DNA of 64,000 nt from Liolophura sinensis (Eukaryota > Mollusca > Polyplacophora > Chitonida > Chitonidae), in contig NC_088304.1 of assembly GCF_032854445.1 (NCBI RefSeq), positions 6,707,704 to 6,771,703 of the forward strand, written 5' to 3'. Made by a program: the position numbers and the translations under genes. The notes below the pieces were generated by a model. That model was not told the origin of the DNA. It was given only the letters and a program-made list of their open reading frames with translations, and made no database searches. Below, piece after piece: positions 1 to 58,689 of the stretch; the first letter of the stretch is position 1; each line of letters starts with the position of its first letter.

Positions 1-160
1 TCAATGGTCACCTGAAAATGTAAACTCTCAATGATCACCTGAAAATGTAAACTCTCAATGGTCACCTGAAAATGTAAACTCTCAATGGTCACCTGAAAAT
101 GTAAACTCTCAGTGATCACCTGAAAATGTAAACTTTCAACAGTCACCTGAAAAGTTGATG
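1..160 (+). repeat. 27-bp tandem repeat, possibly an exon-end plus 5' splice site array of the NUDT9 gene
   Basis: About six units start at 1, 28, 55, 82, 109 and 136 and continue off the left edge. Each of the first five holds AATGGTCACCTGAAAAT followed by gtaaac, a donor-like sequence. Read in the phase needed by the next exon (which starts at 245 with one leftover base), a unit gives NGHLK plus two bases. Joined to the exon at 245 this gives NGHLKINPQGRTG, which fits the region before GRTG in NUDT9. Reading through the donor meets TAA at once. The repeat is certain; its origin from an exon junction is inference. Confidence 0.7.
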
Positions 161-244
161 CCCCATGATGCCAAGATTAGCTCAGATTTTTTATGAATTT
201 TATAAAAATTCAAGATCATATAAATTGTCCACATTTTTTTCCAG

Positions 245-3200
245 AAACCCTCAAGGTAGAACAGGGATAATAGGCCGTGGCTTACTGGGGAAGTGGGGGC
301 CAAACCATGCCGCAGATCCTATTGTTACACGGTCAGTATTATAGTCAGTAGGCTGTGGCTTACTGGGGAATTGGGGGCCAAACCATGCCGCAGATCCTAT
401 TGTTACACGGTCAGTATTATAGTCAGTAGGCTGTGGCTTACTGGGGAATTGGGGGCCAAACCATGCCGCAGATCCTATTGTTACACGGTCTGTATTATAG
501 TCAGTAGGCTGTGGCTTACTGGGGAAGTGGGGGCCAAACCATGCCGCAGATCCTATTGTTACACGGTCAGTATTATAGTCAGTAGGCTGTGGCTTACTGG
601 GGAAGTGGGGGCCAAACCATGCCGCAGATCCTATTGTTACACGGTCTGTATTATAGTCAGTAGGCCGTGGCTTACTGGGGAAGTGGGGGCCAAACCATGC
701 CGCAGATCCTATTGTTACACGGTCTGTATTATAGTCAGTAGGCCGTGGCTTACTGGGGAAGTGGGGGCCAAACCATGCAGCAGATCCTATTGTTACACGG
801 TCAGTATTATAGTCAGTAGGCCTTGGCATACTGGGGAAGTGGAGGCCAAACCATGCAGCAGATCCTATTGTTACACGATCGGTATTATAGTCAGTAGGCC
901 GTGGCTTACTGGGGAAGTGGAGGCCAAACCATGCCGCAGATCCTATTGTTACACGGTCAGTATTATAGTCAGTAGGCCGTGGCTTACTGGGGAAGTGGGG
1001 GCCAAACCATGCAGCAGATCCTATTGTTACACGGTCAGTATTATAGTCAGTAGGCCGTGGCTTACTGGGGAAGTGGAGGCCAAACCATGCAGCAGATCCT
1101 ATTGTTACACGGTCTGTATTATAGTCAGTTGATCTCTTATTTAAATTTCGAGCCATTTGATTTTTTGATAAGTCAGTATAAAAAACACAAGATCCTGTAT
1201 CCTAGATGTGTCGTGTTTCTGTCCAGACTGGTTCTCTCCCCTTGGCGTCAGATGGGGCTAATCGCTTCATCCCAGATGAAATTTAGTATGTGAGTCAACC
1301 CGCACGTTTCATTTCCTTACAGTCAGAACTGTCCCGCTGTTGCAGAAGAGTTACCTTTCTGCGGTTTGAAATCCTCCCCACCCCCCCCCCATAAAATGGC
1401 AAACATAAAACAATCCAGGTGCAGCTTTTGTGAAGTAAACCTTTATGTACTAAATTCCTTATGATTAAAACTGAGGAAAACATGAACAGTTGGTGGCAGG
1501 AGCATAGACTGAAGTGAAGTGTGAGCTTGTTTATTTCATTCAGCGACTGTCCATATAATCCCGTGACCACCTCCGATGCTCTCCCGCCGTGCCCAGTCAG
1601 TAAGAACCACAATCCCAGGGTCCCAGGGTGAAACTTTAGGTCATTCACCATAAACCTGTACATGTATGTGATGTACATATCACTGTTACTTGTAGTTGAC
1701 GTAGTCTCATAAACTGTCATTAGTGGGTTGTTTATTTCTTTATTAGTCCAGCTTTTATGGTTGGAAAAGTTGTGAATTTGAGTTTTGAGGTACGGGTGGC
1801 AACCGTGTGCAGTATGAAGTAAATGATTTTGAATATGACATTAGCCACAAATCATAGTGAGTTCATATCAAATATTTTTTGTTTTAGATGGAAAAGAACA
1901 GCAAATGGGGACATCGCCGCAGACCGGGAGGGTAAAAATGTTCTGCAGATTGTTGTAGTCCAGAGAAGAGACACACATGAGTGGGCTTTACCAGGGGTAG
2001 GTTCAGGGGAGTTGGCACTTTGGAAACTATGGAGGATAGTCTGTGGTCCAGCCACATGCTCATTTGGCTATATAAACCAAATCTCACCACAACCAGTTGA
2101 CTCAGTGACCCAGTCGAGATCGCAGAATAGAATCCAGCTTTGGCTTGTTTGACTGCTGGTACAGCTTTATGTCAGGAGATTTGTAAGGCACAGATTACAC
2201 CAAGACATTCAAATTTCTCCCCCACCTTAGGCTGACCACCATTGTATAAAAGCAAAAATGGCTATATGATATGGCTGATATACAGTGAGTGTGGTATTCT
2301 TAAAACCACAGTCATTGATTCATTCTTATTTCTGTAGAGCATCTCACCATTGCGGTCACTGTGAGTTCAAGTCCAGCTCATGCTGGCTTCGTCTCCAGCC
2401 ATACGTGGGAAGGTCTAGCAGCAACCTGCGAATGGTCTTGTGTTTCCTCAGGCTCTGCCCGGTTTCCTCCCATTATAATGCTGGCCTCAGTCGTATAAGT
2501 GAAATATTCTTGAGTACGGCGTAAAACACTAATCAAACAAATAAATAAAACTGTAGAGCCTTAAACCCAATTTAACATATAAAGTAAACAGGCCTTCTTC
2601 TCTGGCTCAGGGAGCAGGTTTATTCCAATGCGTCATGCTTCATCAAACTACTTTTATTTTATTTTCCCTCTGTGTGACAGGGCATGGCTGATATTATGGA
2701 GCACATCTTAATCCACATGTATTTTCTTTTTTCTCTGTGTCACAGGGCATGGTTGATATCTTTGAGGAGCACATCTTAATCCACATGTATTTTCTTTTTG
2801 CTCTGTGTCACAGGGCATGGTTGATATTTTTGAGGAGCACATCTTAATCCACATGTATTTTCTTTTTGCTCTGTGTCACAGGGCATGGTTGATATTATTG
2901 GGGAGCACATTTTTATCCACATGTATTTTCTTTTTGCTCTGTGTCACAGGGCATGGTTGATATTTTTGAGGAGCACATTTTAATCCACATGTATTTTCTT
3001 TTTGCTCTGTGTCACAGGGCATGGTTGATATTATTGGGGAGCACATTTTTATCCACATGTATTTTCTTTTTGCTCTGTGTCACAGGGCATGGTTGATATT
3101 TTTGAGGAGCACATCTTAATCCACATGTATTTTCTTTTTGCTCTGTGTCACAGGGCATGGTTGATATTTTTGGGGAGGACATTTTAATCCACATGTATTT

Positions 3201-4576
3201 TCTTTTTGCTCTGTGTCACAGGGGATGGTTGATATTTTTGAGGAGGACATTTTAATCCACATGTATTTTCTTTTTGCTCTGTGTCACAGGGGATGGTTGA
3301 TATTTTTGAGGAGCACATTTTAATCCACATGTATTTTCTTTTTGCTCTGTGTCACAGGGCATGGTTGATATTTTTGAGGAGCACATTTTAATCCACATGT
3401 ATTTTCTTTTTGCTCTGTGTCACAGGGCATGGTTGATATTTTTGGGGAGCACATTTTAATCCACGTGTATTTTCTTTTTGCTCTGTGTCACAGGGCATGG
3501 TTGATATTGGGGAGCACATTTCAGTGACGTGCAAAAGAGAGTTCAGTGAAGAGGCCCTTAACTCCTTGCAAGCTGACCCGGTTGAGAAGAAGAAAATTGA
3601 GCAGTCTGTGGCAGCCCTGTTTCATGGGGGTAAAGAAGTAAGAGAACCTGATATTTTACCAAAAAATAATTGCAACAATATTGCTGATTACTGTTTGTAA
3701 TATTTGGAAAAGGGAAAACTTTATTTTGACTTCCTGTTTTACAGCAAAACTGAGCACTGATGATTTGAAAACTAAAGGTTGAATTATAGTGCCAGTAATA
3801 AATTCGTGCCGGTTTTAGATTATCCCTGATAAGTAGTCTTGTAGTTCTTCACCCATTTTGCATGTTTGCAAAATATTTATTCAAACATATTCTGAAGGGA
3901 ATTATTCTACGTTGATGAATAAAATTATACTTTTGGTATAGTTTTCAGCGCATAAATTGCACTGAAAGTTGCTCTTACCTATGCAGGAAGGTTGAGGAAT
4001 TTGAATACATGGTTGCACCTATATTGTAGATTTATAGAGGGTATGTGGATGACCCTAGGAACACTGACAATGCCTGGATGGAGACTGTGGCCTATAACTT
4101 CCATGATGCAGATGGCACAAGTGTCGGCAAGTTTAAACTAAACGCAGGTAAGTACACAGCCTCTGAACAACATGGAAATATATAGTAGGAAAAGCAAGAT
4201 TATTGCATTTTGACTCAGCATTTCAGAATTTTATTAAAATGTTGAAATGTCAAGCCAAAATAAAACCTTATTTTGTCTTTCTTCTTTTTGGTTTTTCTTT
4301 GAGTAAAACTACTTATGTATTAAGTTTAATTTGCACACACCAAATGACTCGTCACTGTCATATGACTAAAAATATTAAGTATGAAGATAAACACCGAGCA
4401 TGCTTGTACACACAGACATATATTGAAGCAGCGGTGCTAATGTCTGTCCGGTGTCTGTTGCAGGTGATGATGCTATGGGTGTTAACTGGATGGATGTGAG
4501 TCGTAACCTGAAACTGTATGCCAGTCATAACGACTTCGTCCGTCAGGTGGCCAGGTCACACAGTGCCAGCTGGTGA
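245..4576 (+). CDS. NUDT9: NUDT9-like ADP-ribose pyrophosphatase, 3' part of a spliced gene (5' exons outside window)
   Basis: Nudix hydrolase of the NUDT9/TRPM2-C-terminal family, which splits ADP-ribose into AMP and ribose 5-phosphate, in mitochondria in vertebrates. Exons by splice site and phase: 245-331, 1888-1996, 3494-3637, 4030-4147, 4464-4576 (stop TGA 4574-4576). The first carries the family signature [22 protein letters not shown]. The second ends in WALPG and joins the third (GMVDIGE...) to rebuild the Nudix box, with catalytic REFSEEA at about 3539-3559: Arg, both Glu and the Glu-Glu pair are present, with Ser where vertebrate NUDT9 has Gly. The fourth has [15 protein letters not shown], the last GDDA..VNWMD and LKLYASH. 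All five junctions agree in phase. Earlier exons, including any targeting peptide, lie before position 1. The exon and splice-site arrays inside two of its introns are listed separately. Confidence 0.93.
265..1130 (+). repeat. 78-bp minisatellite made of the NUDT9 exon 3' end plus its 5' splice site, 11 copies
   Basis: Eleven 78-bp units. Each has about 60 bp coding [18 protein letters not shown], then the donor gtcagt or gtctgt and a 17-bp linker ending in cag. Donors fall at 332, 410, 488 and every 78 bp to 1112. Only the first copy is attached to the authentic upstream half of the exon and a strong acceptor (poly-T then ccag at 241-244). Copies 2-11 start at the linker. Reading through a donor gives an in-frame TAG in the linker, so only the first donor yields an open message. 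Copies differ at a few codons (Arg to Cys or Leu, Lys to Asn, Gly to Arg). Because 78 is divisible by 3, long spurious frames stay open on both strands. Confidence 0.95.
2338..2552 (+). mobile_element. tRNA-derived SINE, family A, 5'-truncated, in a NUDT9 intron
   Basis: It contains a B-box-like GTGAGTTCAAGTCC, a middle part with CGGTTTCCTCCCATTATAATGC, and the family tail CTTGAGTACGGCGTAAAACA ending in an A/T-rich ATAAATAAA tract. The tRNA-like head is cut short. At least seven other copies of the same family lie in the window. Confidence 0.85.
2660..3493 (+). repeat. 68-bp minisatellite of decoy 3' splice sites copied from the NUDT9 Nudix-box exon, 12 copies
   Basis: Twelve units precede the true exon. 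Each contains a T-rich tract, the acceptor tgtcacag, and then GGCATGGTTGATATT..GAGCACAT, a near copy of the true exon start at 3494. Exon-like starts fall at 2681, 2746, 2814, 2882, 2950, 3018, 3086, 3154, 3222, 3290, 3358 and 3426. Spacing is exactly 68 bp from 2746 onward. The copied exon part is about 24 bp; the rest (tttaatccacatgtattttctttttgc) is intron-like. Since 68 is not divisible by 3, entering at a decoy shifts the next unit's frame and meets a stop (TAA in most units, TGA in the true exon from the last decoy). Only the acceptor at 3493 keeps the Nudix box open. Confidence 0.96.
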
Positions 4577-14029: not shown

Positions 14030-17000
14030 TCACTGAAGAGGGGAGAATGGGGTGGGAATCAAGATCCTGGACTGCATGTGACGAATCAGCGGCACTACAA
14101 ATAAATAGCAAAATGCAAATTAGGCCATGCAACATCAAAATGCAAATAAACAAAAGATGTTCTTCAAACACTGTGTATGTGTGAAACAATTACATCAAGA
14201 GCAAAGCCTATACAGCAGCTGTACTGAAACAAGCAGTCTCACTGGAGCAAAAACTTTTAAGGGCTGAGCCAGAGTTCAATAGGTTGTGTAATACAAATTT
14301 GACCAACAGCTTTCCTTACAAGAGGACTTGGAAACATACACAATCTTACAATGCTGATCTGTCCCAAAGATCAGTGAAATACACTGTAAGCCTCCACAGA
14401 TCAAGGAGTAAAACCTCGGGACAAGCTGAAGTTTAATTTCAGCTGACACTGGAATAACTATACAAATTGGCATGTGGTGGATTTGAACCACTGACTCCTT
14501 ACCATTATGGAGATCATGGAGAAAAACCTTGGAACAAGCTGAAGTTAAATTTCAGCTGACACTGGAATAAATATACAAATTGGCATGTGGTGGATTTGAA
14601 CCAATGACTCCTTACCTGTGTAAGCCACACACTCATCCCAGCCCGGTTTCTGCCAAGCTGCCTCTCTTGTCTCCTTCCTTGTTTGGAGGTCTTTGTACCC
14701 TGTTCAAATACAATCCATACTCCATCAGCATACTACACATCACTGACTGTACATGTACAATTGGTATTGTTATCAACTTCATTTTTTTCAGAAACTGAAT
14801 CTGACAAAGAAAAACAGTATCTGAAGTCTATACAGTTCAAAGTTATATTTCAACATGCTAAGTTAGCACAACTTTCAAAAATTTCAATATGCATCTAAGG
14901 AGATATGCTGGAGGGCTCACAGCAAAGATATGGTTTCCTGGGTTAAATATTTGAATACATTTGAAATACCTAAAATTCTGCTTGGTCTAAGCACAACCTT
15001 GACCTGCATATCCCCCACACCAGCCAATCGGAAAAGATTCTGTACCCCTTTTGAGTCAGTGAGTGTTTGGAGTTTAATGTCATGTTCGACAATTTTTCAG
15101 TCATATGACGACGAAGGAATCCTTAGGGTGTCTGTAATGTACCTCCTTGTTGCAGGACGGATTTCCACTGCTCTTTTATCTAGTGCTTCTTCACTGAGAC
15201 GCCTTACCGAAAGCAAGTAAGCCACCCCGCCCAAGCCATTATACTGATACGGGTCAACCAGTCGTTGCACTATCCCCTTCATGCTGAACGCCAAGTGAGG
15301 AAGTTACGACCTCCTCTTTTAAAGTGTTAGGTGTGACTTGACCCAGGATTGATACTGGATCTACCGCTCCAGAAGCGGACGCTCTATTCACTGTGCTACC
15401 GGGGCTGGTGTACCCCTTTTGAGAAGCAAAAATGAACCTCTTTAGAGAAGCAAATGAACCCCTTTTGAGAAGGTAATGCATTTTAATATTTCAAGATCAA
15501 GACTACCAACACTTTCAATTCAAGACATTTCTATTGCAATGAATGGGTGCCATTTTTGGCATTGTCAGCAACCAATAAAACAATGCAAACATGCAACACT
15601 GCTGTGCAACTTGCTCAGGGAAGGATGAAACGTTAAAACATAAACAAAAACATGGATTCTGTATGGCAAGCCGATTCTTGCTGAACACAAAATGCTATCT
15701 AATATTCCAATACACATACAATAAGCAGACAACAAGGTAACACAACACTATATCTGGTCACAAAATATTGGCCTATGTGCAGTGGACAGTGACTAGGGGA
15801 AGGTGAGACGGTACATTAGAGCATACAGTACATGTATGTGGCACTACACTTGAAGTGCTTTAAAGGTGTGAAGTGCTTCCATTCTGTCTGAAACAAGATC
15901 TAGTACACTAGCCGCTGAATACAGTGATACAATGGGAGACTCGAGGACGAGTTACGCAGAAGGTCCAGCAGAATGACAGTAGAATGCATCATTTTCTTCT
16001 GTGACGTTGCAGTGCGTGTGCACTTCATATATGTTTCATGAGCACACGTATGCTGAATTCACTGTTTTGAAAAACCTTGATAGAGGCGAGAAGGAGTTTT
16101 ATGAGTTCCCCATTACCTAAAACACATTATCCCTGCACCCATATCATTAAACTGCAAACCGTTGATTATTTTGAGCAAGCCAGCCCATCCATGTAATGAA
16201 TTGTTCTCTTTGTCTGCTCAAAGTTGTTCTCTTTGTCTGCTCAGCAATGAAAGTCACAATGACAACCATCATGTACATCCAAAGCTTTTGCACGCACCCC
16301 CCCCCCCTCTCAGCCTCCCAACAAAATACTACACTAGTTTAACCAACAATACTGACAACCTGAATCTATTAGTTTATCTTCATCTCCTTCATTCTGTGCC
16401 TCCATAATACATGTAAATGTTACGCTGAAATTTGTATATTTTTAATATCTCAAAATTATACTTTACAATCTGTAAGTTTTCACTGCTTTATAGTTTCTAA
16501 TTTTAAATTTTGTTGTCAAATTTCTTGAAAATATGAGAGCATTGATTTAGTTAATTTCTCCTGATTAAACTGAAAAAAAAAATTGACGTCATTTTCTTTT
16601 CCCTCCACTTCTTACTTTCACCATACCTCAGATTCACACTGAAATACAATTATCCCATTATCAAACTTCATTTAACCACTATTTTTTGTACACCTTTGCA
16701 ATATATATCAGCTTGCGTTTAACATTCAGTTTTAATCAAGTTGATTCCTAATTACACAAAATCTAGAAAAATTTACATGTTACTGCATACATACCAAATA
16801 GATGCTGAACAGAGGTGAGTTGTCCAATTTGTGAGAAAAAGCCGGCTACTGCTTCATTGTTACTGCGTCTGTGCTGAATACCCCTGGCCCTTCAGTAAAC
16901 AAAGCCACAAATGGCAAACTCAAAGCTACGGTCCATGGTTATGAAAAAAACACAACAAACTATCAGCATGAGTAAACCAACAGCAAACATTAATTCACCG

Positions 17001-26000: not shown

Positions 26001-28412
26001 TCAGAAAAGTTTAGACAAAGAGTTCATAACTTTCCATCCAAACGACTACTTTGGATCATATATCATCAATTTTTAACTGGACACTCTATGTGCACAGCCA
26101 TGAGCATTTATATTTATTTATTGGTGTTTTACGCCTTACTCAAGAATATTTCACTTATACGATGATGGTCAACATCATGGTGGGAGGAAACCGGGCAGAG
26201 CCCGGGGGAACCCACGACCAACGAAGGCTGCTGGCAGACATTCCAACGTATGGCCGGAGAGGAGACTTGAACTCACAGCGACCGCATTGGTGAGAGGTTC
26301 CTGGGTCGTTACGCTGCGCTAATGTGCTAAACAACTGAGCCATGGAGGCCCCTCATGAGCATTTATAAGAGAATATTAATGACAATGTTAAAGAATAACT
26401 AAAATCAACACTTGCTCTGTAATTCATATACTGTTTCTTTGCTGGCCAGCTTGCTTGAATGAGACTCTTTGCTGGGCGTAAGGGTACGGACATTGAGTAA
26501 ATTTTTTAACCACCCTCCACTTTCTGGGGCAGGCTCTGGTTCAGGTGTAGCTGATCTGCATACCATAGGACTTGTCCCCAAACATCTGCACAGAAAAAAG
26601 AACAATGAATCTGTTAGTTGACTGACTTACAGATTTATTCAAATGACTTTCCTGCCAGATCTATTTCACCCACGTTACAGTGATTAGATTTATGTGAAAA
26701 AAGAAACTGGGTTCTGAATATCCTCCTTTCCAGGTTTTATTAGTGGAAGAAACCATAGTGCCTGGGTTCTGAATATCCTCCTTTCCAGGTTTTATTAGTG
26801 GAGGAAACCATAGTGCCTGGGATAAACCACCAAGTGTTTGTATGTTAGTGGCCACCTTTTCCACAAGTACTGACTTACAAGCCATTGTGGTGAAAAGCAA
26901 GGATTTTCAATGAAAGAGAGACTGTACACATGGTCAAATGAATGTTTTTTCCACAAGCAGTGAGAGCAAGGTAATCTGCGAGTTCCCTGTCAAGCTGGAT
27001 ATGAACGCGCACTTTGAGTTCTCTGGCTGGACAGTTGTGGTGAATCTATTACAAACAAGTTAGTTGTGGAGTGGGATAGCTCTCAATTCAAGTGAGGCAG
27101 TTGCGAGTTACAGTGTGAGACAGGCTCAAATGTGTCGGATGTACAGTACAGAACATTTATCACTATTCAAATAGTGCATTAAAAGATTCCCCTAGCATAA
27201 ATCGATGTCAACCAAATCTTCAAACAAATTAACTAACCTGTTCTTAGGGTGGCATTACCAAAAATAGTCCATGGCAACAACACAAAATGACAAAAAAGAG
27301 CATTTGATTTCCAGGGTCCAACTTTCTGTGGCCGCCATCTTGATGTGTTTGTCTTATTCACATGATCAATGTGATCACTCGAAATTTCATTCGAGGGAAA
27401 ACTCCTGAACTTGGCGATACATCTGCCTGGTCATAACCTCAAGATTAGTCTTGTTAAAGCAGCATGATGGAGGCAGGCTCACTAACTGCTGGTATACACC
27501 AGGATAACATGATTATTTTTCATGAACAGATGTGATAGTCATGGGCCTTTTTGGTTTAGGGGTCTCAAAACAGGTTAGGTTAATTAATTACAGGGACCAC
27601 ATGGTCAACCTTGATATTTATTTATTTATTTGATTGGTGTTTTACATCGTACTCAAGAATATTTCACTTATATGATGGGGGCCAGCATTATGGTATGTAT
27701 TCGTTACCCTGAGCTGGTGTGCTAACCCCCTTGGCCACGGAGGCCCCGTTGATTACACTTATGCTAGCAAAGTTTTAATGTGCGTGTAAACTGTGGCAAA
27801 TGTTCCTTGCTATCAATCCGACATGCTTGGGAATGTTAGGCGCAATGTTACTCTTGAGATTCTTGAAACAAGAGTTACCCCATTCCACTACTACGGACAT
27901 GTCGGTTTAGGTCAGGAAATGGTGAAGATGGTGGATATATTACTTGTGATGTGATGATCATTTTCAAAGTTTATCACAGTGTATATATTTCACATGTATC
28001 TACTCTTTTCTTTTAAATAAAGCTGATATTGTTTCCAGGCTTTACCGCGCAAAACTTGGGAGAGTTGGTGGGGGTACCATCATCGTGAATAATTTGTGAT
28101 ACATGAAATTTTGGTGAACTGTACTGTAGAAAATTCAGCTGACGATGTTGCTGGGGCACAGGGGGGTGTGTGTGGGGGGGGGGGGGGTGTACTTGTTCTT
28201 GTAGGGTATCGGATAGGACAAGATAATGATGTAGTCTGAGACTCAGTCATAATCATCCGACAACAGGCGCATTGCCTCTTAACCATTGCATTTGTCACTG
28301 ATTTGCCTTTGACGTTTGTCTACCTGATGAGGTTTGCATCTCGGGGACAAATTCTATTTGATAAGGCAGCCGCAGAAACTTTCTGCCCAGCAGTTCTCCA
28401 GAGTGCAGCCAT
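14030..28412 (-). CDS. NIPSNAP: NIPSNAP family protein, complete ten-exon model with alternative exon 8
   Basis: Closest to NIPSNAP1/2, mitochondrial-associated proteins linked to mitophagy signalling; the molecular activity is unsettled. Exons (minus): 28324-28412, 26416-26585, 25949-25994, 25111-25202, 23881-23951, 23047-23187, 20392-20423, then 18496-18590 or 16795-16889, then 14616-14699 and 14030-14094. The exons of one form sum to 885 nt, or 294 residues, close to the 284-286 of vertebrates. Exon 1 starts with a good Kozak context (aagATGG) and reads [20 protein letters not shown], basic and alanine-rich like a mitochondrial presequence. Later hallmarks are [92 protein letters not shown] and [17 protein letters not shown]-stop. 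All junction phases match. Exon 7 is only 32 nt. Introns carry SINEs, a foldback element and minisatellites. Confidence 0.95.
14403..14616 (-). repeat. Tandem duplication of about 100 bp at the 5' splice site of NIPSNAP exon 9
   Basis: Two copies, about 14403-14505 and 14517-14616, share ACAAGCTGAAGTT, TTTCAGCTGACACTGGAATAA and GGCATGTGGTGGATTTGAACCA through GACTCCTTACC. The right copy ends exactly at the exon 9 donor (minus strand ggtaag). The left copy holds the same ggtaag out of exon context, making a decoy donor. Confidence 0.85.
15057..15409 (-). mobile_element. tRNA-derived SINE, family B
   Basis: On the minus strand the head reads as a tRNA-like segment (AGCACAGTGAATAGAGCGTC, then ATCCTGGGTCAAGTC as B box). 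The middle has AAGGGGATAGTGCAACGACTG and AATGGCTTGGGCGG. The tail is TCATATGACTGAAAAATTGT plus a diverged copy of the family end. A second full copy is at 59815-60148. It lies in the NIPSNAP intron between exons 8b and 9. Confidence 0.85.
16795..16889 (-). CDS. NIPSNAP: NIPSNAP alternative exon 8b (95 nt)
   Basis: Acceptor ttactgaag, donor gtatgt. Reads [20 protein letters not shown] followed by [11 protein letters not shown]. It lies 1.6 kb downstream of exon 8a. The [15 protein letters not shown] stretch is the more vertebrate-like of the two, while 8a keeps the Trp before the next exon where 8b has Phe. Both ends fit the flanking exons, so the pair looks mutually exclusive. Confidence 0.92.
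18496..18590 (-). CDS. NIPSNAP: NIPSNAP alternative exon 8a (95 nt)
   Basis: Acceptor gtttccaag, donor gtaagt. Reads [20 protein letters not shown] followed by [11 protein letters not shown], entering with one leftover base and leaving with one (phase 2 in, 1 out). It pairs with exon 8b at 16795-16889: same length, same phases, 19 of 31 residues identical by eye. Because 95 is not divisible by 3, using both or neither breaks the frame of exon 9. Confidence 0.93.
18693..18965. mobile_element. Foldback/MITE-like element with 13-bp terminal inverted repeats
   Basis: It starts GGGCCATATCTAG and ends CTAGATATGGCCC, perfect inverted repeats 273 bp apart, with no coding capacity. It lies in NIPSNAP intron 7, just upstream of exon 8a. 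Confidence 0.7.
20505..20637. repeat. 15-bp minisatellite (ACTAGTAATGAATAC)
   Basis: About nine near-perfect copies of ACTAGTAATGAATAY in NIPSNAP intron 6. The repetitive minus-strand frame VFITS is a by-product of the period of 15. Confidence 0.95.
21990..22345. repeat. Tandem repeat of about 115 bp, roughly three diverged copies
   Basis: Units share CCTAACCTTCAATCCATG, AATGTGCATT, ACACACCATACCTTA and an A-rich run. In NIPSNAP intron 6, no coding signal. Confidence 0.8.
22778..23008 (+). mobile_element. tRNA-derived SINE, family A
   Basis: Head with TCTCACCAATGTGGTCACTG and B box GAGTTCAAGTCC, then GCTCATGCTGGCTTCC and GTGGGAAGATTCACC, and a tail ATAAGTGAAATATTCTT..AAAACACCAATCAAA. It ends about 40 bp downstream of the exon 6 donor in NIPSNAP. 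Confidence 0.88.
24250..24875. repeat. 40-bp minisatellite in NIPSNAP intron 4
   Basis: About fifteen highly similar 40-bp units (GAACATACACGCGMCAAATA, ACAGACAGGTACAGAAATGT). To the right, 24880-25090 is a degenerate stretch with related ACAGACATGAACATAAA words. Three 40-bp units equal 40 codons, which explains long open minus-strand frames (24192-25094) in all three frames. They have no exon-like relation to NIPSNAP. Confidence 0.96.
25433..25525. mobile_element. SINE fragment (GGAGTAAACCACC domain)
   Basis: GATTTATGGGTGGAGGAAAG then GCCCGGAGTAAACCACCCAC resembles the conserved block of other dispersed repeats here (25750-25800, 9895-9930). Partial copy; family uncertain. Confidence 0.45.
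25657..25830 (-). mobile_element. Degenerate SINE
   Basis: Tail TTTATTTATTTGATTGTTGT with TTAATGCAATACTC, then GGGTGGATGAAACC, AGAGAAAACCACAAACC and GGCAAGTTAGAGACAAACTTT. The tail-first order on the plus strand indicates minus orientation. It lies just beside NIPSNAP exon 3. Confidence 0.55.
26107..26352 (-). mobile_element. tRNA-derived SINE, family A, near full length
   Basis: Minus-strand head GGGGCCTCCATGGCTCAGTT (A box GGCTCAGTTGTTTAGC), B box GAGTTCAAGTC, body with CTCCGGCCATACG and GGGTTCCCCCGGGCTCTGCC, tail TAAGTGAAATATTCTTGAGT. It sits in the 421-nt NIPSNAP intron 2, whose donor is a GC (see findings). Confidence 0.92.
26695..26835. repeat. Direct duplication of about 62 bp in NIPSNAP intron 1
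   Basis: CTGGGTTCTGAATATCCTCC followed by TTTCCAGGTTTTATTAGTGG and AAACCATAGTGCC occurs twice in tandem. The GGAGGAAACCATAGTGCC..GATAAACCACC words again resemble the dispersed SINE core. Confidence 0.8.
27612..27750 (-). mobile_element. tRNA-derived SINE, family A, internally deleted
   Basis: Tail TTTATTTATTTGATTGGTGT, TACTCAAGAATATTTCACTT, then directly the head end (GGCCACGGAGGCCCC). The middle half of the element is missing. Confidence 0.8.
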
Positions 28413-28714: not shown

Positions 28715-31700
28715 ATGACTGTTAGCTTGGAAGAGTATTTTCGCACAACCTTCGAGGACAAACTCCTCGTGTGAGTATTTCAGACGACTAAAATTTTCAA
28801 ATACATGGAGTTCGCTCAAATGTACATATGATACAGTAGGCTATAGCCCCAAAAGACTCCAACTCGTTTTCTTATATTGGCCGAGCGTCGCTGGAGTCTC
28901 GACGCTAACAGTGTGAATTTCATACTCAAGAAAGGTCCAGGCCGATTTTCTTTGTTATCGAACAAGTCTCGTGCAAATAAAAACCGTCAACCTAAAGACC
29001 TGGGACCACTTTCACAAAGATGTCGTACTTAAACGACATCGCACATATAGGACGATGGTACGTTAGTAGTGACGTGCAAAATATCGTACGACAAATGTAC
29101 GATAAATGTCATATGCCGCTTTGTGAAGGTGGCCCTTGCTTTCCGCACCCACCGCACCAGTGCAATATGCCCCTATTAACTTTAGAATAGATTTATTATA
29201 TCCATAAAGGCTTCCATGGCACACGCTCCTCAGCCATGGCTGCAATCTTCCTACTGCTCCACTATGAAGCAGGACATGTGCGTAGGCCTAAATGTTGCTG
29301 CTCAACAGGCCAATATTAAAAAAAAAAAATATTTCGCAGCTAAGTAGTCTAGTGCCTTGATACAACAAATTAATTTGAACTCAGCACATAAAATCAAGTT
29401 GCCCCTAACAAAAACATACACATAAACAAAGGAGCCCTTGAGTACCCCAGTGCATGTTAATCGCATCAGTATTCCACACCAAATCATATACTATCTTCTT
29501 AAAAAACTATTTACACTTTAGGTATCGGCCTACATATCCATTCATCGTATTTGAAAGATCTGAAACTATTTAAAGGGAAAGAAAATATACAAAGGAAGTA
29601 AACATCAGTAGAAAGGCCATTGAAACTATATCTGAAAATATCTTCCCTTTTTGCCATATTTTTTTCTCTCTGTAAATTAAATGGCCCTGAGTTTTTAAGT
29701 GGGCTATTTGCAGTTAGTGTAAGATTTGAAGTGGGAAGTGTTAAGGGGAGTTAAACCAATTATCTGCACTCATTTTGGTCACATGGGGAGAGTGTTGGAG
29801 GTGTATAGGATGCAGATTCAATCTATGCACAATTGACCTTGAATAAAATGATGTTTATTTTCATGAAAAATGAAAAAATGAAAATTAAAGCTCTTAGTTC
29901 AGAAACTGTTGTGGAAGAGTAATGAGAATACCATATGTCTGGCCTTCAAACATGATAGTTCCTGATTCAGTGCCCTATCGTACATAAAGCTGCAGAAATC
30001 TAGTGCCATGTTATTTTCTTACTGACTTTTCATTCTCTTTTAGGCCTGAACATGGAAAGATTGTGAAAAGTTTTGTAACATCATCTCTGGTGACATACAC
30101 TATCAGTATGGTCAATAATTAAAACGATTAAAAAAAAATGATCTTTCTACTGGTGCTTACTTCATTTTTATGTTTTCTTTCCAGTTTATATAAAAAACTA
30201 GTTCCTATCATGGGAGATATAGCAAAGAGACATGATTAATTAAACTCAAATTACTTAAATGAAACAGCTAGGGATGTTCATAATTTTGCCCTGCAGATAA
30301 TCAAAATGATCAGCAAATTCATTGAAAGACTTCATTGTTGTAGGCTTAAAGTAATATATTACACCATGGAATGCAAAGGATTATTGAAACCTTTCAAAAC
30401 ATGCACATTGTATATAGTGTATATCTATATTCCTTTTTAAATAGACACTGGCAGCTAATTTGCTACACTTCAAGTAAACCAAATATGCTAGTCATTGCTA
30501 CTACATCATTTACAAATGTTGTTTGGGTTATTTTCCATAGATGAATATCACATAAATTTGTTTTGTGTGATAATGGACTTCACTTGTTCAGTTGATCTCT
30601 TCCAACAAGTATGACATTTTTTTTCATGATAGAAAGATGCCAGAGCGGGAGGATGACCACCTGACTCCCGCCACTCGCCTCCTGGAGAAGAGGCGGGAAA
30701 TGGCAGAGGTGGAACAGGCACTAGCTGCCCAGAAAGAGGTTTGTAAAAGGGTTTAATTACCACCTAGGTCAAAGTAGATACAGTAAATGACCTCAAATTT
30801 TGTCTAGGGCTATGCTGCTCAGATTTCCTGATTCTAGCAGTTTGATAAGTCTTATGAAACTGTTCAGAGTTTTCAGTTAAAAAACTGGGAAAAAATGTAA
30901 ATTTCAAGATTATTTTATGACATTTATTTGCCTCTAAATAGGAACTTTTTTTTGGAAAAAAATTTTAGGTCATATATATGCCAAAGACAAAAAACAATGA
31001 ACTGAGTATTTTCTTGTACCACAGCTAGAATATATTAACAACAACTCTCTTAATGAAATACACACATATACACTCTACATGTCTACACAAATAAATAAAT
31101 ACATGTTGGTGAATTATGTGTTGAATGTGTTTTCAGACATGATCATTTTTTATTTCATGCATGATTGAATGAAGACATAAGACATATGATACTGAGTAAA
31201 GAGTAAAATTTGTTTATACCCATGAAGAAAGTGATGGATATTTCATTTTTGTATTTAAACTTTCAGGAATTCCAAATGAAAATGGAAAGCCTTCAACAAA
31301 GAAGAGAAGAATTAGAGAGAAAAGAATATCAGTTGAAGGAATCTTTGTTAAAATTTGATAAATTTTTAAAGGTAAGTACGAAACAAGAATTTTGATGCAA
31401 AAGTCAATTTTATAATGAATTCACTGGATACCCTTGGTGGTTAAATGCCTGTATGTGACCAAGTTCTCATATCTCAGTGTAAGCTCAGCCCATGTACATC
31501 AGGCTGTATTAAATGTCACTGTAGCTAAAGAGTATTTGTGGCATACATCTACATGAAGTTTAAGTGGTTAACTAAACAGATATTTCATGTCAAAATTTCC
31601 AAACTCATTCATGATGTTTTCTGACATGAAATGATGAAACAGAGCATCGGCGTTAATCAATGTATTGCAACACAACGTTGGTAAAATAATGCATCTGATT

Positions 31701-34700
31701 TAAAATATAAGCTTTTTGTTCAAAGGAAAATGATTCCAAGAGAGCAAGAGCTGTTAAGAAGGCTAATGATGAGAGGGAAATGAAGAAGCAGAAAGACAAA
31801 GATATTCTCAGGTGGATTTCTGTTGTGTTATTTTCCTCTGCATAATCTCTGCGGACTCCCACAGAGTTAACTAAAGCATGATTCTTGTTCTGTGCCTCCT
31901 CAGCATTAAGGTGGCTGAGGATTAAAACCAGCAGCAATTCCTCAAAGTCCTGTCTGACCTAAGTCAAAATTTAAAAAATCTCTATACAATGTTTAGTTTG
32001 TGGTACTGGAAGTTGAAATTTGGTGAGGAAGGGGGGGGGGGGGAATTTTAATATCCCAAAACCCCCAAAAACCAGCTTTCAGATCATATTTCAAATTTTG
32101 ACTAAAGTCAGAAATGGCTTTGTGGAATCAGCCCCTGCTACAGCCTTAATATGGACTTTTGAGATTAAAGTCTTGCTCCCTGATGAGAGGTAATAAGTCC
32201 TAACTACATATACCATGTGACTTGTTTTGTTCACATGAATTTACTGATCACGTGTCTCACCATGTTCTGGTCTTGAGATACATGTATATATTACATGTCT
32301 TTCCTTGAGGAATGTCTTAGGCTGACGACGATTCACGTCAATATTCCCCGTCATACTAGTATTTGTCTGCTCTAACTATAACTTACTGTGGAACCTTTCT
32401 CAGATGCCCATGCTGTAGTAAATGTAATAAAAAAATACTTTCATAACAATTCTGACAGATCACTTAATTGGTACAGTAGAACTCTTTTTATCTTTATCGA
32501 TAAAAGAGTTTGAAGTCATCAACTCAAAACTCCACTGTTCAAGTCTGGTGAGGTTGCTCAGGTGAATGGCATTGGTTTGCTCTTGGTCACTGAATCCAGT
32601 TTCCTACACTCATATTTGAACCCTGGCTTGTAAAAAGTGTAAAATTCTCAAGTAAAGTTTTATTGGATAAATGAGTACGTCTATTATGTAACCAGAGACT
32701 GTATATATGACAGAATTGTTTTTAACTCTGCTTACAATGTATATACCCTACAGAGAACACACGTTTTAAATTTGACATGCTTGTTGGTTTTATATTTTGT
32801 ACCAGCCATACTACAAGTATGTTAAAATGGTATTGTCAGTGGAATATTTAAAAATGTGTACAGTGCTCTTAACTAAGTGTCTTATCAAATAAACTTGATT
32901 TCACAGGCTGAAAGTTGAAACAGAAGCATTAATGCGAGAAAAAGACAAGATCCAAACACGTTTGATGAACCATACAATCTTCCACAAGTACATGGAGAAA
33001 GTGCTGGAATCTGGTGAAGAATTTCACGAGATTCGAGACATCATTGCCAGATATGACACATTAACAGCAACTCATGAGGTCTGATGGACAAATCTTCATT
33101 TATTTATTTATTTTAATACTTTGGCATTAGGTACGTTTACTTGCTGAGGAAATTGAAACTTACATATTAACATTATTCATTATGGAGGCTGTGATGTTCT
33201 CCACATGTAAATTTAATGTATCTAATACGTACATGTAGATTTAATTTTATTTTTACAAAAACATTTTTTTACAGCTTAGTTTTACGGGGAAAAAATTGAT
33301 CGAAGGGTGGATTGATTGATTATTTGATTATTGCGTAAGGCCACCCTAATGCATAACTTTCTAGCCATAGTTCATCCGGAAAATTTAACATGTTTAAAAC
33401 TAAATTTAGTCTACAAAACATGGCTGCCTGTAGTGCTGGCTTACTTCATACTTTTAGTGTTATGACTTTGTAATAACTGCATGCTTTTCATTTATATAAT
33501 AGTATAAATGGTGGTAATGGATTGAGTTACTATGATGGTTGATAGCGTCCATTTTTTACCGACATCTTAACAACCCCGCAGAGGGTGCAGGTTGCGGAGG
33601 ACACAGTTTTAATTAAATTAATTTCATTTTATCTGCAACCTGGTTGACGTTTCTAAGTTTTCATAAAACCGCACCTTCCACAGGGTTGCTAAGGTTGCGG
33701 TCTAGATGGACGCTATCAGCCACCATAAGTAAGTGTTAACATGTGGTACATTATATAAATGTCAAGATGATTGGTACTAAAATGGTTGTAGTTTTGTCAT
33801 TCATGAGGCTTCGGCTGTTGTATACTGCTATAGTGTCATGTTGCTCTCATTAAATAATAGTGTAATACATGTATATGATTGCAGTATGCTGTTGTCCTGT
33901 TTCTTGCATTATCGTTGGCTCTCATGCGGGTGTACAGTACGTGTTGTCACATGTCTCATGGAGTTACAGTGCTAATCATGTAATGCTCAGTGTTAATACA
34001 ATCATAATGTTTGTAATGAAACACTTGTAGTCAGTGGTAATTAATATTATGTGGCGGATAGGCATTACATTTTATAGCATTAATGTTACTTGTGTTAATG
34101 CTTGTGCAAATACTAGTATAGTTGTAATGCCCAGATTTTCATGCCGTTGTACCTATTTGTTTGATCAGGACTTAATGGAGAAGGACCAGCTCAATCAAGA
34201 TGCTGTTGAAGCACAGAGACAACAGTTACTCAAATACACAGAGGTTTGACCTTTATGATGCCATAACTTTCTGAAAAGTTCCCTGTGTATGCTGAAAAAC
34301 TAAACATTCACAAATTATATGCAGTAACAACTAAATCCCATCATACAGTGTATATGTAGTCTCTTTTTTATATTCTCTTTTGGGTGGTAGGGTGACTCAG
34401 GGGCGCAAATTCCGTTTTCTAATTTCTTTACAGAGTGTGATTTACATTGTCCTGAAATTCAAGATCAGCTAAAGAAATTTAAAAACAAGAAAAATTAGCC
34501 TATGATAATGAATCATAAAATTTTCCAGGCATGGATCTTCTGGTTGGTTTTCTCATTACTTCAAGGCCTGTGCTTGATGTTTACAGGAAAAAAACAATGA
34601 AATTTTGTCCTACAACAACCAACTGGCCAGTCTTCAGACTAGGTTAGACAAAGCCCAAAGTGAGGCTGTCAAATGGGAGTCAGTCTGGACACATATCAAA

Positions 34701-47222: not shown

Positions 47223-49694
47223 CTATGGACGCGCCATCACCTCAAGTAACCTGTCCCAGAATACCGGCTCGTCAACTTGTTCGTTATCCCACAACAGAAA
47301 TGTGATGTGTTTCCACAGATTTAGTAGCGATCTTGGCATTTCTGCCACAGGGATCTCTTCCATCATGATCACAATAATGGCGTTCTCACGACCATCTCTC
47401 ACCATGCGCATGCCCGCCATTTGAATTTCAAACTCACACCAGTCACTGGTCAGGAAGGCTCTGCTGATCACCAGGATGACCTTCCGACTGTTGTTGACGG
47501 CGTCCACAATGTTCTGTTGTATGCTGACACCCACGGGGAAATCACGATCATGGAGGCACAGAGTGTAATTGTTCTCATTCTCTAGGACGTTTCTCAGAAC
47601 AATGCAGGCCCACTGGTAGTTGTGGTAATTATACGCTACAAACGCCTCATACTGAAATTGTTCAATTTCTATTTCCTCATACACAGGCCCTCTTCGGCAT
47701 TTGGTTAAAATCCAATATTTAATATTCCATCTATATCTGTACCCGAATATCCCCAGGACTACGGCCAGAGTGAATAAGCACGATCCAACAACGGAAAATG
47801 TCAACCAAAATTTGCTGACACAACTGACGTCCATGTTCTTTATGTGAGATTTGTAGCTCCATATGTTTGTAACAGTTCCATTTTTCAGGGTGCAAGACAG
47901 AGAACCATTGTCTGTAATATTAACCGAGGCCTCCAAAATCCAGTGAATGAATGTTAGCGTATTGCAGGTGCACAGGAAAGGGTTGTGTCCCAAAGACAGA
48001 CTTAACGTCTTACCGTGTGTTGACGTTGGCCAGCTACTGAGCCGGTTGATTTCCTCAGAAGATAACGACGAAATTACATTAAATGTCAAATCTAGCTCCT
48101 TAAGTGAATGTAAATGTAACACTGATTCTGGGATTTGAATGAACTTATTGTTCCCGAGAAGCAAAGTTTCCAGGGTAATCAGAGGTTTAAATAAGTTTTT
48201 ATGTAAGGTGGTAAGATCGTTGTTGGAAAGATCAAGTTGTCGTAATTTTTTCATTGGACGGAATACGATACCGTTAGGGTCGTTTTGAAATCCAATGTTT
48301 AGTTTACAATTTCTGGCACTGAGAATTTCCAATAAAGGAAAAGCCTCAAAAAAACTTGGTGACAGACCGCTGCAGTCAAAGCCTGACATGTTAAATAGCG
48401 CCAGATTCTGTAAACCAGAAATTCGAAACGCACAGTACTGGATCCCGAAGTATGCCATATCAATCACACGGAGATTTTCAGCGTTAACTAAGTCAATGTC
48501 AGGCAAATATAAATTACGGCCGCCCATGTACTTCGCTATTAATACTTCTAACTGTGGAGGAAGGATTGCGTGTACCTTAATTGTTCCACTCCGTTTTGCG
48601 ATACTATGTCGTTCTGTAGCGACTGGTAATGAAGTCGAAAAAACGTTCCTCTCTCTTCGTAATGCCGTATACTGGGCACTGAACTCCAAGTGTTTTAGAT
48701 TGATAAAACGATATACGCCTAAAAAGTTGTATATGTTATTAGAAATTGACAGAAGATTATCGTTCATAACAAACGTTTCAATACAATCGGGATAAAGGAA
48801 GTGTAACAGAAAGTCACCGTTGACCAACATAATTTTATTGCCCGACAAATCCAGGTGTTTTACACACATTGTATCCAGGTGAGCAGTCATGTTGGCAGTA
48901 AGGATGAGGTTTTCTGGATTAAGTCTGCCCCCTCTATTCTTGTTTGTCCCCACGATAGAGAGTGATGTCAGATTCCGCCATCGGAGATCCACTAGAGCAG
49001 ATAAGGTTCTTCCTAATCCATCGGTACGCATGTTCAATGTTGTTAAAAACGGGAAATGTTTTAACGTCCCTGGTTCCATGCCTAAGCACACTATCCTCAA
49101 AGTTTCAATGGACATGTTTGCAAACACAGCGAAAGTGTGTGTGTTGAGTGTGACCTGCATAGTATTGTCAATTACATGCAGAGACTTCAGTGAAGACAGA
49201 TGCAAAAAACCGGATCCAAAAGAGACATTTCTCAGGCCGTCGATTCTCAATTCTTTCAGAGAACTGAGACCATTAAAGATTTGCTCGGGATATCTACCGA
49301 TTTCTGAATATGGGTTCCGAAGATTCTTTTCTAATGCCAAAGCCTCTAACTTTTGCAGGGGTCTGAAAACACCAACAGGGTAAGCTTCATAAGTAAGAAG
49401 CAGATTATTTTCACTCAGTCTGAGAGTGGAGAGCCTTGACAATCCCCTGAAAGCTGACGGTTCTAACTTCTCCAGCCGGTTACCTGACAGATCCAGACTG
49501 GTCAAGGCGCTCAGGTTGATGAAGGAGTCATTGGGTATGGTTTTCAGCAGGTTGTCGCTCAAGTCCAAGCTTGCTATTGTTGACGTGATGTTGGTTGGTA
49601 CCTTCCTCAGCCGGTGATTATGAAGATCAACATGGCGTCCTTCCGCGTTGGTGTGTACGAAGATGATTGTGACAGTAATGAGTTGAGCAATCAT
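47223..49694 (-). CDS. Toll-like receptor, intronless, copy 1
   Basis: Membrane receptor of innate immunity, 823 residues in one exon. The start is the ATG at 49694, which begins a signal peptide (MIAQLITVTIIFVHTNAEG); the tandem copy supports this because it has an in-frame TAA just upstream. About residues 25-570 are leucine-rich repeats (LDLSDNLLKTIP, LDLSGNRL, LDLSNNDL). A single C-terminal cysteine cap follows (LCTCN..., residues about 571-628), then one transmembrane helix (about 629-652) and a TIR domain (about 682-823) with box 1 YEAFVAY, box 2 HDRDFPVG and box 3 FWDRLL. One cysteine cluster beside the membrane makes it a single-cysteine-cluster TLR. TIR domains pass signals to MyD88-type adaptors in other animals. 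The BB loop reads DFPVG where many TLRs have D-x-x-P-G. It is paralogous to 60529-63000; a specific TLR number is not assignable. Confidence 0.97.
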   Translation of the reverse strand: MIAQLITVTIIFVHTNAEGRHVDLHNHRLRKVPTNITSTIASLDLSDNLLKTIPNDSFINLSALTSLDLSGNRLEKLEPSAFRGLSRLSTLRLSENNLLLTYEAYPVGVFRPLQKLEALALEKNLRNPYSEIGRYPEQIFNGLSSLKELRIDGLRNVSFGSGFLHLSSLKSLHVIDNTMQVTLNTHTFAVFANMSIETLRIVCLGMEPGTLKHFPFLTTLNMRTDGLGRTLSALVDLRWRNLTSLSIVGTNKNRGGRLNPENLILTANMTAHLDTMCVKHLDLSGNKIMLVNGDFLLHFLYPDCIETFVMNDNLLSISNNIYNFLGVYRFINLKHLEFSAQYTALRRERNVFSTSLPVATERHSIAKRSGTIKVHAILPPQLEVLIAKYMGGRNLYLPDIDLVNAENLRVIDMAYFGIQYCAFRISGLQNLALFNMSGFDCSGLSPSFFEAFPLLEILSARNCKLNIGFQNDPNGIVFRPMKKLRQLDLSNNDLTTLHKNLFKPLITLETLLLGNNKFIQIPESVLHLHSLKELDLTFNVISSLSSEEINRLSSWPTSTHGKTLSLSLGHNPFLCTCNTLTFIHWILEASVNITDNGSLSCTLKNGTVTNIWSYKSHIKNMDVSCVSKFWLTFSVVGSCLFTLAVVLGIFGYRYRWNIKYWILTKCRRGPVYEEIEIEQFQYEAFVAYNYHNYQWACIVLRNVLENENNYTLCLHDRDFPVGVSIQQNIVDAVNNSRKVILVISRAFLTSDWCEFEIQMAGMRMVRDGRENAIIVIMMEEIPVAEMPRSLLNLWKHITFLLWDNEQVDEPVFWDRLLEVMARP

Positions 49695-49859
49695 GTCTAA
49701 CACTCCAAAATACGCTGTAAAAAGCCTTTGTATAGTGACTACCCAGAAACGGTTCCGATCTTCTTTAATCAAACTACGAACGTATTAAATAAGATACCGG
49801 GCAAACCTTGCTGTCAACAGTAGATGAATACTTATGTCGATTAGAAATATTTAGAAATA

Positions 49860-52399: not shown

Positions 52400-55300
52400 C
52401 TTGTCACCCTGAAAAGATAATTAGTAGTTATCAAATTTACAGACAAATCAAAGAATAACGATGATAACAGAACCTATTGAATTTGGTGACGCCCTTAAGG
52501 TGGCTAATATAGTGGCTAACAGAATCTCTTACTTCTTGTGACAAGAAATACTACCAAATAAAATATTTGAGTTCTGTTGGTTTGTGGATTTAAAAGAGTC
52601 GCCACTGATTGTTGTTGCACAGCTAAAATCGAAAGCCGTCTTAATATGTCATTACGAATCTGTCCACAATATGGACACCGAAGTAAAAGATGATCGATAG
52701 TTTCTAAAACATTGCGGTGGTTACAAAACCCCGTGGGAGGCTTTTCAATTCTACAGAAATAAAACTTCAAGGGAACGTGACCCGACTGCAATCTCATTAA
52801 AAACACTTGTTGTAACCTTCCCTTCACTGACACCCAAGCATTTCTTACTGTAGGAAACAAACTGTAGTAAAATCTACCTTTGGCACCATTTTCCCATTCC
52901 TGCTGCCGCATTTCCTAAAACTGTTTTCGATAAACACTAAACATTTCCGATACAGACATATTTACAGGGATATCTATACCACTTTTCGTATACGCTGCTT
53001 TCGCCAACCGATCCGCCCTCTCGTTCCCTTCAATATTACTGTGGCCTGGAATCCACTCAAGGCAGACGTGAATGTTCTGATAGAATAGATAAGTAAAACA
53101 GTGTAGTATCTCAAGTACAACATTGTTAGCATTTCTCCCAGAATGGTTGATCAGAGCAAATAACGTACTTAGAGAGTCAGTAAATATTACACATTTGAAG
53201 GGACGAAATTCTTCTACAAATTTTAACGCCACCAAGATAGCAACTAATTCGGAGGTGAAGACAATAACATGATAAGATAGACGGTGAGACTTTTCATATT
53301 TTATTTCAGGGACACAGAATGCTGCGGATGTTTTTCCAGATTCTGGAAATTTCGACCCATCTGTGTAATTGTGGAGATAATCATACCAGGTCGAATATGA
53401 TCCTTAGCACACAATTCTGTATTTTTGATAGGGTCAGATTTCCTTACTTTCGAATGGAGTTTTGTAGATATAAAAGGAGGCCTCAGCTTCCATGGAGGGA
53501 ATGGAAATCTTGCTTCCTTTTGGACAATTTACTCATCAAGCTGCAATTCATCTCGAGTGGATTGAGAGCGAACACTCAATGTTTCTTGGTCTTTGACTTT
53601 CAATTTTTCTAATAGTCCAGAATGCCAAGTCACAGTTAAAACATCAGAGGCAGGATTATTATGACTTGTTAACAAAGACAAATAATACTTAAAACTTGTC
53701 ATTTTCTGTCTAATCCATAATGGGAGTTGACCTGTTGTTACCTTCAGTACCTGTAATGGGGTAGTCCTCATTAACCCAGTACATATACGTAAAGCCTGGT
53801 CCGTGTATAGAGCCAAGCCTCATCTTCAGTGTACGAGAGGCAGACAACTCCGCTCCATAATCCAACATAGATTTAATCAAAGATTTATACAGTTTACCCA
53901 TTGCATTTCTACCCTCCCCCAAGAAGTGCCAGACACACTTTTCATCAGATGAATTGCTGACTGGCATTTGGCCACCACTCCATCAATATGATTCTTCCAC
54001 GTAAGCTTAGCATCAAAAGCCATACCAAAAAATTTGAAATACTGGGTGTATGTAATATTGTAATCTGCCCCTTTTAATGATATATCACATGTGATTTTCG
54101 TTTTAGTAAATAACAGGGCTCCTGACTTAGAAGAGGAAAATTAAAAACCCCATAGCTTTCCCCGCTGAAAAATATTTGATACAGTAATATTAATGACTTT
54201 CACTACATGTTTCAGATTTCTTTTCGCAAACCAGACGGTCTTATCATCTGCAAATAAGGACCTTGTTGACACTGGATGGTACAGACTCAGGAAGGTCATT
54301 TATCATAACATTAAACAGTGTAGGTGATATAACGCTGCCTTGGGGTGTTTCGTTTGTGATAGCTACTTTTTTGGATAGACAAGAACCAAATCTCACTGGA
54401 TAACTCTGTCCGATAAGAAACTTTTGATCCACCCAAACATACGTTCATCTATACCATTTTACTTAGTTTAAACAACAATGCTTTTTCTACATGTAAGGAA
54501 AACAGCTACAAGGTATTCTTTGTTAGCTAACGCACACTGAATTGAATGTTCTAGATGAATTAAATGGTCTAAGGTTCTCCTACCTTCTCTGAAGCCACTC
54601 TGAACCGATGATATTATACTTTTACTTTCTAACTACCACAGCAGCCTGTAGTTAACCATCTTCTCCATTACCTTACAAATACAGGACGTCAGTGCAATGG
54701 GGCGGTAAGAAAGAAGATGGCTGTAACGCGGGCTTACCGGGTTTACACACCGGTACTACTACCGCATGTTTCCATGATAATGGTAAGGTCATCTTCATCC
54801 ACACAGAATTAATAAGCATTAAAATGAGATTTAAAAAATTATCTGGCATATTTTTCAACATGGTGTACCCAATTCCATCCAGGCCAGGGGGGTGACTCTT
54901 TTGTCTGCCGAAGTGCCCCCTTAAGTTCTTGAAGAGAAAATTCATCATTATTAGGCAATTCATCGAAGCAAACGTTTTGATATATATGGTCATTCTCTAG
55001 CTCAAATTTACTCTTATGTTCAAGAAATTCAGGGTCATAATTAGCGTCATTGCAGCAAAAGACTCAGCCAGGAGGTCACTTTTTTCTCGTTCGTAATAGC
55101 ATTGACGTTATCCTTAACAAGCGCTGGAATAGAGAAACCTTTACTCTGGCCTTTGCATCAGTACACTCAGTATTCCAATACGGTACGGGCTGTTTCTGTT
55201 GGTATTTACCTGCCGTCCGAGGAATGGTTTCATTAGCTATTGACGTTATTGCAGAAATAACATTATCATTAAATATATCAACATTGTCATTAGCAACTTC

Positions 55301-57450: not shown

Positions 57451-57510
57451 AACTACTCTAACCGACCTATCAGTGCATGCACAACACAAGACAAATGACA
57501 TTAAATGTAC

Positions 57511-58521
57511 AAGACATTTAGCGTGCTGGTCCTTGGGACACTCAGGGCTGGTCAGACAAAGATATCCGTGTTAGTTCAGAGTCACACAAGAGAAACTATG
57601 TCTAACTCAGCAGTGCTAACTGTGCCTATATATCTATAAACTAAATAGTCTAAAAGAAAAAAAAAATAATAATTTGGATGAGTATATAACTAAATTCAAT
57701 ATAACTCACATGAACGATAACATACTCACAACAGCTTGGCCAAACAAACAAAAGACTCTCAACAGCTAAATAAGCTCTGAAAAGCCTTTAAACCTCTCGC
57801 TGACACGCATACAAAGTAGGCTTATGACTTCAAACTTAAACCTCCCCAAGACATTTAGCGTGCTGGTCCTTGGGACACTCAGGCCTGGTCAGACAAAGAT
57901 ATCCGTGTTAATTCAGAGTCACACAAGAGAAACTATGTCTAACTCAGCAGTGCTAACTGTGCCTATATATTTATAAACTAACTAGTCTAAAAGAAAAAAA
58001 ATAATAATTTGGATGAGTATATAACTAAATTCAATATAACTCACATGAATGATAACATACTCACAACAGCATGGCCAAACAAACAAAAGACTCTCAACAG
58101 CTAAATAAGCTCTGAAAAGACTTTAAAACCGCTCGCTGACACGCATACAAAGTAGGCTTATGACTTCAAACTTAAACCTCCCCAAGACATTTAGCGTGCT
58201 GGTCCTTGGGACACTCAGGGCTGGCCAGACAAAGATATCCGTGTTAGTTCAGAGTCACACAAGAGAAACTATGTCTAACTCAGCAGTGCTAACTGTGCCT
58301 ATATATTTATAAACTAACTAGTCTAAAAGAAAAAAAATAATAATAATTTGTATGAGTATATAACTAAATTCAATATAACTCACATGAACGATAACATACT
58401 CACAACAGCTTGGCCAAACAAACAAAAGACTCTCAACAGCTAAATAAGCTCTGAAAAGCCTTTAAACCGCTCGCTGACACGCATACAAAGTAGGCTTATG
58501 ACGTCAAACTTAAACCTCCCC
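57511..58521 (-). repeat. Three tandem ~337-bp monomers at the 5' end of the retrotransposon
   Basis: Units start at 57511, 57848 and 58184 (spacing 337 and 336) with AAGACATTTAGCGTGCTGGT and end with CTTAAACCTCCCC near 57847, 58183 and 58521. They differ by only a few bases and small indels in an A-rich run. They lie directly upstream of the ORF1 region of the minus-strand element, the place where some LINEs carry tandem 5' promoter monomers. Confidence 0.93.
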
Positions 58522-58689
58522 ATTTCTTTATCCAAAACTGGTTTAATAATAAAGTACGATATACAAGAGACTTAAGACAAGGAAGGCAAATTTCTACCTT
58601 TTTCCAAAATTGAAGAAAATGTGTATGGTTAAAGCTACATACCTTGACTTTAATAACCTGATTACAAACATTTTTAAATCATGGGCCCA

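Follow-up and report, generated by a model that had tools for sequence, protein, structure and literature searches.

In the human gene IFI6 (G1P3, 6-16), a minisatellite with multiple splice donor sites has been described (Turri, Cuin and Porter 1995, Nucleic Acids Research (NAR) 23:1854), and two of its downstream repeat units are reportedly used as donors, giving rise to extra isoforms (PMC4526556). In the potato RNA-dependent RNA polymerase gene (RdRp), a tandem duplication over an intron-exon boundary created an intron that transcripts support (PMC4974935), while for exons with large flanking introns it has been reported that the splice sites closest to each other across the exon are preferred (PMC9225289). 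Here, we analysed a 64,000-nucleotide stretch of the genome of the chiton Liolophura sinensis (609 Mb in 632 contigs), positions 6707704-6771703 of contig C10, hereafter called the window. We found that its NUDT9 gene carries two junction-spanning minisatellites of the IFI6 type, i.e. arrays whose repeat unit holds the splice site of the abutting exon: array A multiplies a donor and array B an acceptor.

The gene model was obtained by joining seven exons by hand, which yielded exactly the 304-residue NCBI protein (P0001); the product is 100% identical to the Liolophura sinensis entry 'ADP-ribose pyrophosphatase, mitochondrial-like'. Exons 1 and 2 lie upstream of the window, followed on the plus strand by exon 3 (245..331), exon 4 (1888..1996), exon 5 (3494..3637), exon 6 (4030..4147) and exon 7 including the stop codon (4464..4576). 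Residues 27-304 match the solved ADP-ribose pyrophosphatase structure PDB 1q33 (E 5e-95), which we take to be human NUDT9, and the Pfam NUDIX domain is recognised with 38.3 bits (cut-off 21.1). Full-length homology together with the Nudix domain thus identifies the gene as a NUDT9-type ADP-ribose pyrophosphatase.

Array A (271..1129, plus strand; 78-bp unit, 11.0 copies; score 1571 in Tandem Repeats Finder, TRF) lies in the 1556-bp intron 3. In its unit, the final 61 bp of exon 3 are joined to the 17 bp with which intron 3 opens, and copy 1 is exon 3 itself. The donor implied by the NCBI protein, ACACG/GTCAGT (the slash marks the junction), has its intron part at 332..337 on the plus strand, and the 20-mer across this junction (331/332) was found 10 more times downstream in the intron, the donor copies following at 78-bp spacing from 410 to 1112 (410..1117, plus strand); in the copy at 878, which reads ATCGGT, the GT has been lost. 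Array B (2655..3508, plus strand; 68-bp unit, 12.6 copies; TRF score 1512) lies in the 1497-bp intron before exon 5 and repeats a polypyrimidine tract, an acceptor and the first part of exon 5. The true acceptor before 3494 is its last copy, and the 20-mer across it recurs 12 more times in the intron, with the first exon-like base at 2681 and those that follow spaced by 68 bp between 2746 and 3426 (2681..3426, plus strand). Copies match each other by 97% in array A and 95% in array B, with 0% indels in both, and such head-to-tail units of about 10-100 bp with few indels are those of a minisatellite. Neither unit was found elsewhere in the sequence compared with them. Both arrays had been proposed in an original prediction made from the sequence of the window, as donors at 332 and beyond and as acceptors before 3494, and both are borne out by the junction 20-mers.

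The NUDT9 arrays resemble IFI6 in having a tandem repeat at an exon edge with a donor in each unit. They differ in that their units are longer and include up to 61 bp of exon, that acceptors are multiplied too, that several loci are involved and that use of a downstream copy would truncate the product. With potato RdRp they share a duplicated segment that crosses the boundary and copies splice signals; that case, however, was a single duplication that gave a new intron, whereas the chiton arrays comprise many copies, and no intron has been gained in the protein model.

But, how can a gene carry so many copies of its own splice sites and still encode its protein? The NCBI entry, a single protein model, implies the first donor of array A and the last acceptor of array B, and with any of the 22 other copies the spliced product would shrink from 304 residues to 147 (array A) or 212-228 (array B). 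Because the NCBI protein equals the product of that splicing, the exon-proximal copies are taken to be those used in NUDT9. Site strength cannot alone guide this choice, since five of the ten other donors of array A score equal to the true donor with a generic matrix, and array B and the array at L038, one of the loci sampled below, each contain one copy that outscores their others. The choice of the exon-proximal copy may instead follow from exon definition. As in the described proximity rule (PMC9225289), rival sites would compete, with preference for whichever is nearest over the exon where introns are long; unlike there, the rivals in NUDT9 form natural arrays, number about 10 or more, and their usage is read from a protein.

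The original prediction also expected the pattern to recur beyond NUDT9, and a sample that was unselected for arrays agrees with this. The DNA around 73 of 81 myosin motor domain matches was taken, splice sites were set mechanically by a generic matrix without transcript support, and a junction was counted as repeated when the 20-mer centred on it recurred (at least 16 of 20 bases) within 200 bp on the intron side, not the exon side. Of the 146 possible junctions, six could not be used because no site exceeded the threshold or the sequence was not visible. Of the remaining 140, eight (5.7%) were repeated into their own intron: the donors at L036, L041, L056, L066, L067 and L077 and the acceptors at L038 and L050. 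The array at L077 has only about two copies, and that at L041 begins 59 bp from the junction, though its units copy the junction. The matched first-copy measure gave 232 hits at 13955 random positions (1.66%; locus bootstrap 1.1-2.3%), so that 2.3 repeated junctions were expected and the observed number is 3.4-fold higher (Poisson P = 0.003). Deep introns of the same genes, sampled in 15 stretches, gave 43/2837 (1.5%; 0.4-3.0%), corresponding to 2.1 expected (P = 0.0016).

These matched rates are the ones relied on. An earlier placement test had found 5 of 106 junctions against 8.6% of random positions (265/3088) and hence apparently no enrichment, and was replaced because random positions counted every copy of an array and junctions only the first. 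For this first batch, a version with collapsed units expected 4.3 against the observed 5 (P = 0.43), its density including the junction arrays themselves, and units of the random genome predicted 1.3 per 106. It had further been argued that repeated hits in a single gene are unlikely by chance. Two hits among the 12 junctions of NUDT9 have a probability of 0.107 at the rate of 5/106 and of about 0.15 at 8/140; as the gene was picked for its arrays, these two need no special cause.

Minisatellites are abundant in this genome. At a period of at least 12, at least 2.5 copies and a length of at least 60 bp, 29 arrays account for 9.2% of the sequence in sixteen 10-kb stretches from arbitrary places (L010-L025, 160 kb), and coverage of the window is 10.5%. 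The genome paper of the genus gives repeats as 27.89%, with 14.04% unclassified (PMC11068029); in its repeat table, simple repeats, microsatellites and RNA add up to 0.08%, and neither 'tandem' nor 'satellite' occurs in its main text. The roughly 9% of minisatellites found here stand against that 0.08%. One stretch between myosin exons (L084, C12:670501-672000; 1.5 kb) consists wholly of a 146-bp tandem repeat.

We consider it probable that the arrays are locus-specific minisatellites of a minisatellite-rich genome, likely denser beside exons and tolerated through use of the exon-proximal copy. A short tandem duplication would start anywhere, with exon-side intron probably affected more often than deep introns or other places, and would grow by slippage or unequal exchange. 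Where the founding segment straddles a splice junction by chance, the exon edge would be copied along. Such an array would persist since its exon-attached copy is left unharmed and serves in splicing, as the closest pair across the exon wins: the first donor in a donor array, the last acceptor in an acceptor array. The other copies would be removed with the intron and presumably drift neutrally like any repeat, their harmlessness probably being a consequence of exon definition. Several points weigh against this explanation. The exon-proximal use is read from a protein model; the junction rate exceeds that of both random positions and deep introns and is thus unexplained by purely uniform placement; and, in the conservation test described below, the splice cores of array B are less variable than the rest (1/176 changed cells vs 16/572) and the power that young copies allow is modest.

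The excess at junctions could mean that exon boundaries themselves are amplified, a shared mechanism that the original prediction had put forward. No peak of array origins was seen at the 140 junctions, where the first-copy rate of 5.7% is the same as the 4.4-7.1% from +10 to +80 into the intron; inside the exon, from -60 to -20, it drops to 1.4-2.1%. From the rate at +20 to +80 (about 5.9%), 8.2 repeats are expected at the junctions, against the eight observed. The equal rate from the junction to +80 shows that the boundary is not singled out and that the whole intron flank is raised, which leaves such a mechanism without support. A rival idea is that tandem duplications arise preferentially within some 100-200 bp of junctions, the surroundings of exons being mutational hot spots in which the junctions are caught up; exon-linked causes such as co-transcriptional splicing intermediates, R-loops, nucleosome edges or base composition might break or re-prime the DNA there. 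The raised first-copy rates of junction and intron flank over random positions and deep introns fit this idea, and so do the edges of TRF arrays, which fall between -57 and +100 on 12.0% of 133 sides (cluster bootstrap 5.9-18.1%, 18 clusters) compared to 4.8% at random (3.1-6.6%) and 5.1% in deep introns (0.3-11.2%). In four NUDIX genes an array starts within 100 bp on 3 of 8 sides, yet none of the eight junctions passes the strict 20-mer test (the NUDIX loci L001 and L003, without a usable donor, were left out). Moreover, the data come from one main gene family in about 18 clusters, the intervals of sides and deep introns overlap, unmasked transposons could dilute the deep introns and the splice sites were placed mechanically. 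The enrichment of arrays in exon flanks is hence suggestive, and we regard a mutational hot spot as plausible but somewhat doubtful.

It had also been supposed that selection keeps the arrays as decoy splice sites. They would then form an off-switch of splicing in which use of any decoy truncates NUDT9, and the shortened products calculated for all 22 other copies would suit such a device. The conservation test covered eight arrays (A, B, L023, L036, L038, L041, L050 and L056), including L023, whose exon is unverified, and omitting the later-fetched L066, L067 and L077. Changed cells amounted to 21/818 in the splice cores and 86/3635 elsewhere (Fisher P = 0.71), and in array A to 6/99 and 15/759, respectively. 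As the cores vary like the rest of the unit, selection for decoys is unsupported. Donor position +4 varies more than any other column of array A, one copy of this array lacks the GT, and similar arrays occur at 8 of 140 unrelated junctions, all of which makes the supposition very improbable. Even less credence is due to an assembly artefact, in which the arrays or their copy numbers would stem from misassembly. Tandem repeats often cause assembly errors, while HiFi reads are far longer than these 0.9-kb arrays. The published assembly of the genus was built from PacBio HiFi and Omni-C data (PMC11068029), although it may not be the assembly analysed here; besides, the copies hold distinct variants and the pattern is seen at other loci.

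Three further candidates were not accepted as junction arrays. For the repeat at L011:4842-4939 the exon in question is without support; two other exons of this locus presumably encode a protein resembling serine carboxypeptidase. The array at L023:3467-5845 (89 bp x 27), with units CATCATCAG/GTAAGAC, has the look of a donor array, starts inside an exon-like open frame and holds a perfect-looking donor in its unit, while its exon is without homology support; it stands outside the 140 junctions. The acceptor of the NUDIX locus L005 fails the 20-mer test and was not counted; by eye, it seems to be part of a diverged array in which a 28-bp unit ending in CAG/G is repeated about 30 times.

Within NUDT9, a third set of donors had been suspected from position 20 onwards. 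This sequence belongs to a 27-bp array detected by TRF (window part 1..153, plus strand) that starts at L007:9380 in mid-intron 2, with about 930 bp between it and the donor and about 90 bp between it and the acceptor at 245, and neither junction 20-mer of intron 2 is repeated within 2 kb; it is therefore no junction array. Immediately before it lies a 20-bp x 28 array (L007:8784-9345), with which three of the six NUDT9 introns contain long arrays. Exon duplications claimed for the neighbouring genes NIPSNAP and CFAP73 were not confirmed either. TRF reports two two-copy duplications in the window (14398-14616 and 26707-26821), and the exonic status of neither could be shown; CFAP73-like (DUF4200) exons are indicated by weak, sub-threshold Pfam matches only (30574-30753 and 32899-33081), and NIPSNAP by just one short minus-strand motif, at 23952. 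Further along the minus strand, 47223-49784 and 60529-63033 hold similar long open reading frames (853 and 834 residues) that by eye appear Toll-like receptor-like, with leucine-rich repeats and TIR. Between them, at 52516-57000, lie several reading frames resembling, by eye only, pieces of a non-LTR (long terminal repeat) retroelement, and beside these a 336 bp x 3 repeat (57510-58522).

For junction-spanning minisatellites on a genome-wide scale, no report was found in the literature searched, a partial coverage that makes this weak evidence of novelty; as far as this search goes, both the scale and the multiplied acceptors look new, and the IFI6 donor minisatellite is the precedent. If the sampled rate holds, the chiton genome contains thousands of natural contests between near-identical splice sites, and ordinary RNA-seq could then test the proximity rule of exon definition on a large scale. 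Repeats are usually expected to be purged beside exons, and a confirmed excess of them there would contradict this; the duplicated boundaries suggest a route to new introns and alternative exons. Tentatively, and as somewhat less likely than not, we propose that exon neighbourhoods are birthplaces of minisatellites, that about one in 20 junctions, thousands genome-wide, lies inside an array of its own copies, and that accurate splicing depends on picking the exon-proximal one of up to a dozen or more equal sites. Were this true, the genome would represent a genome-scale natural experiment on splice-site competition and a steady supply of introns and splice variants.

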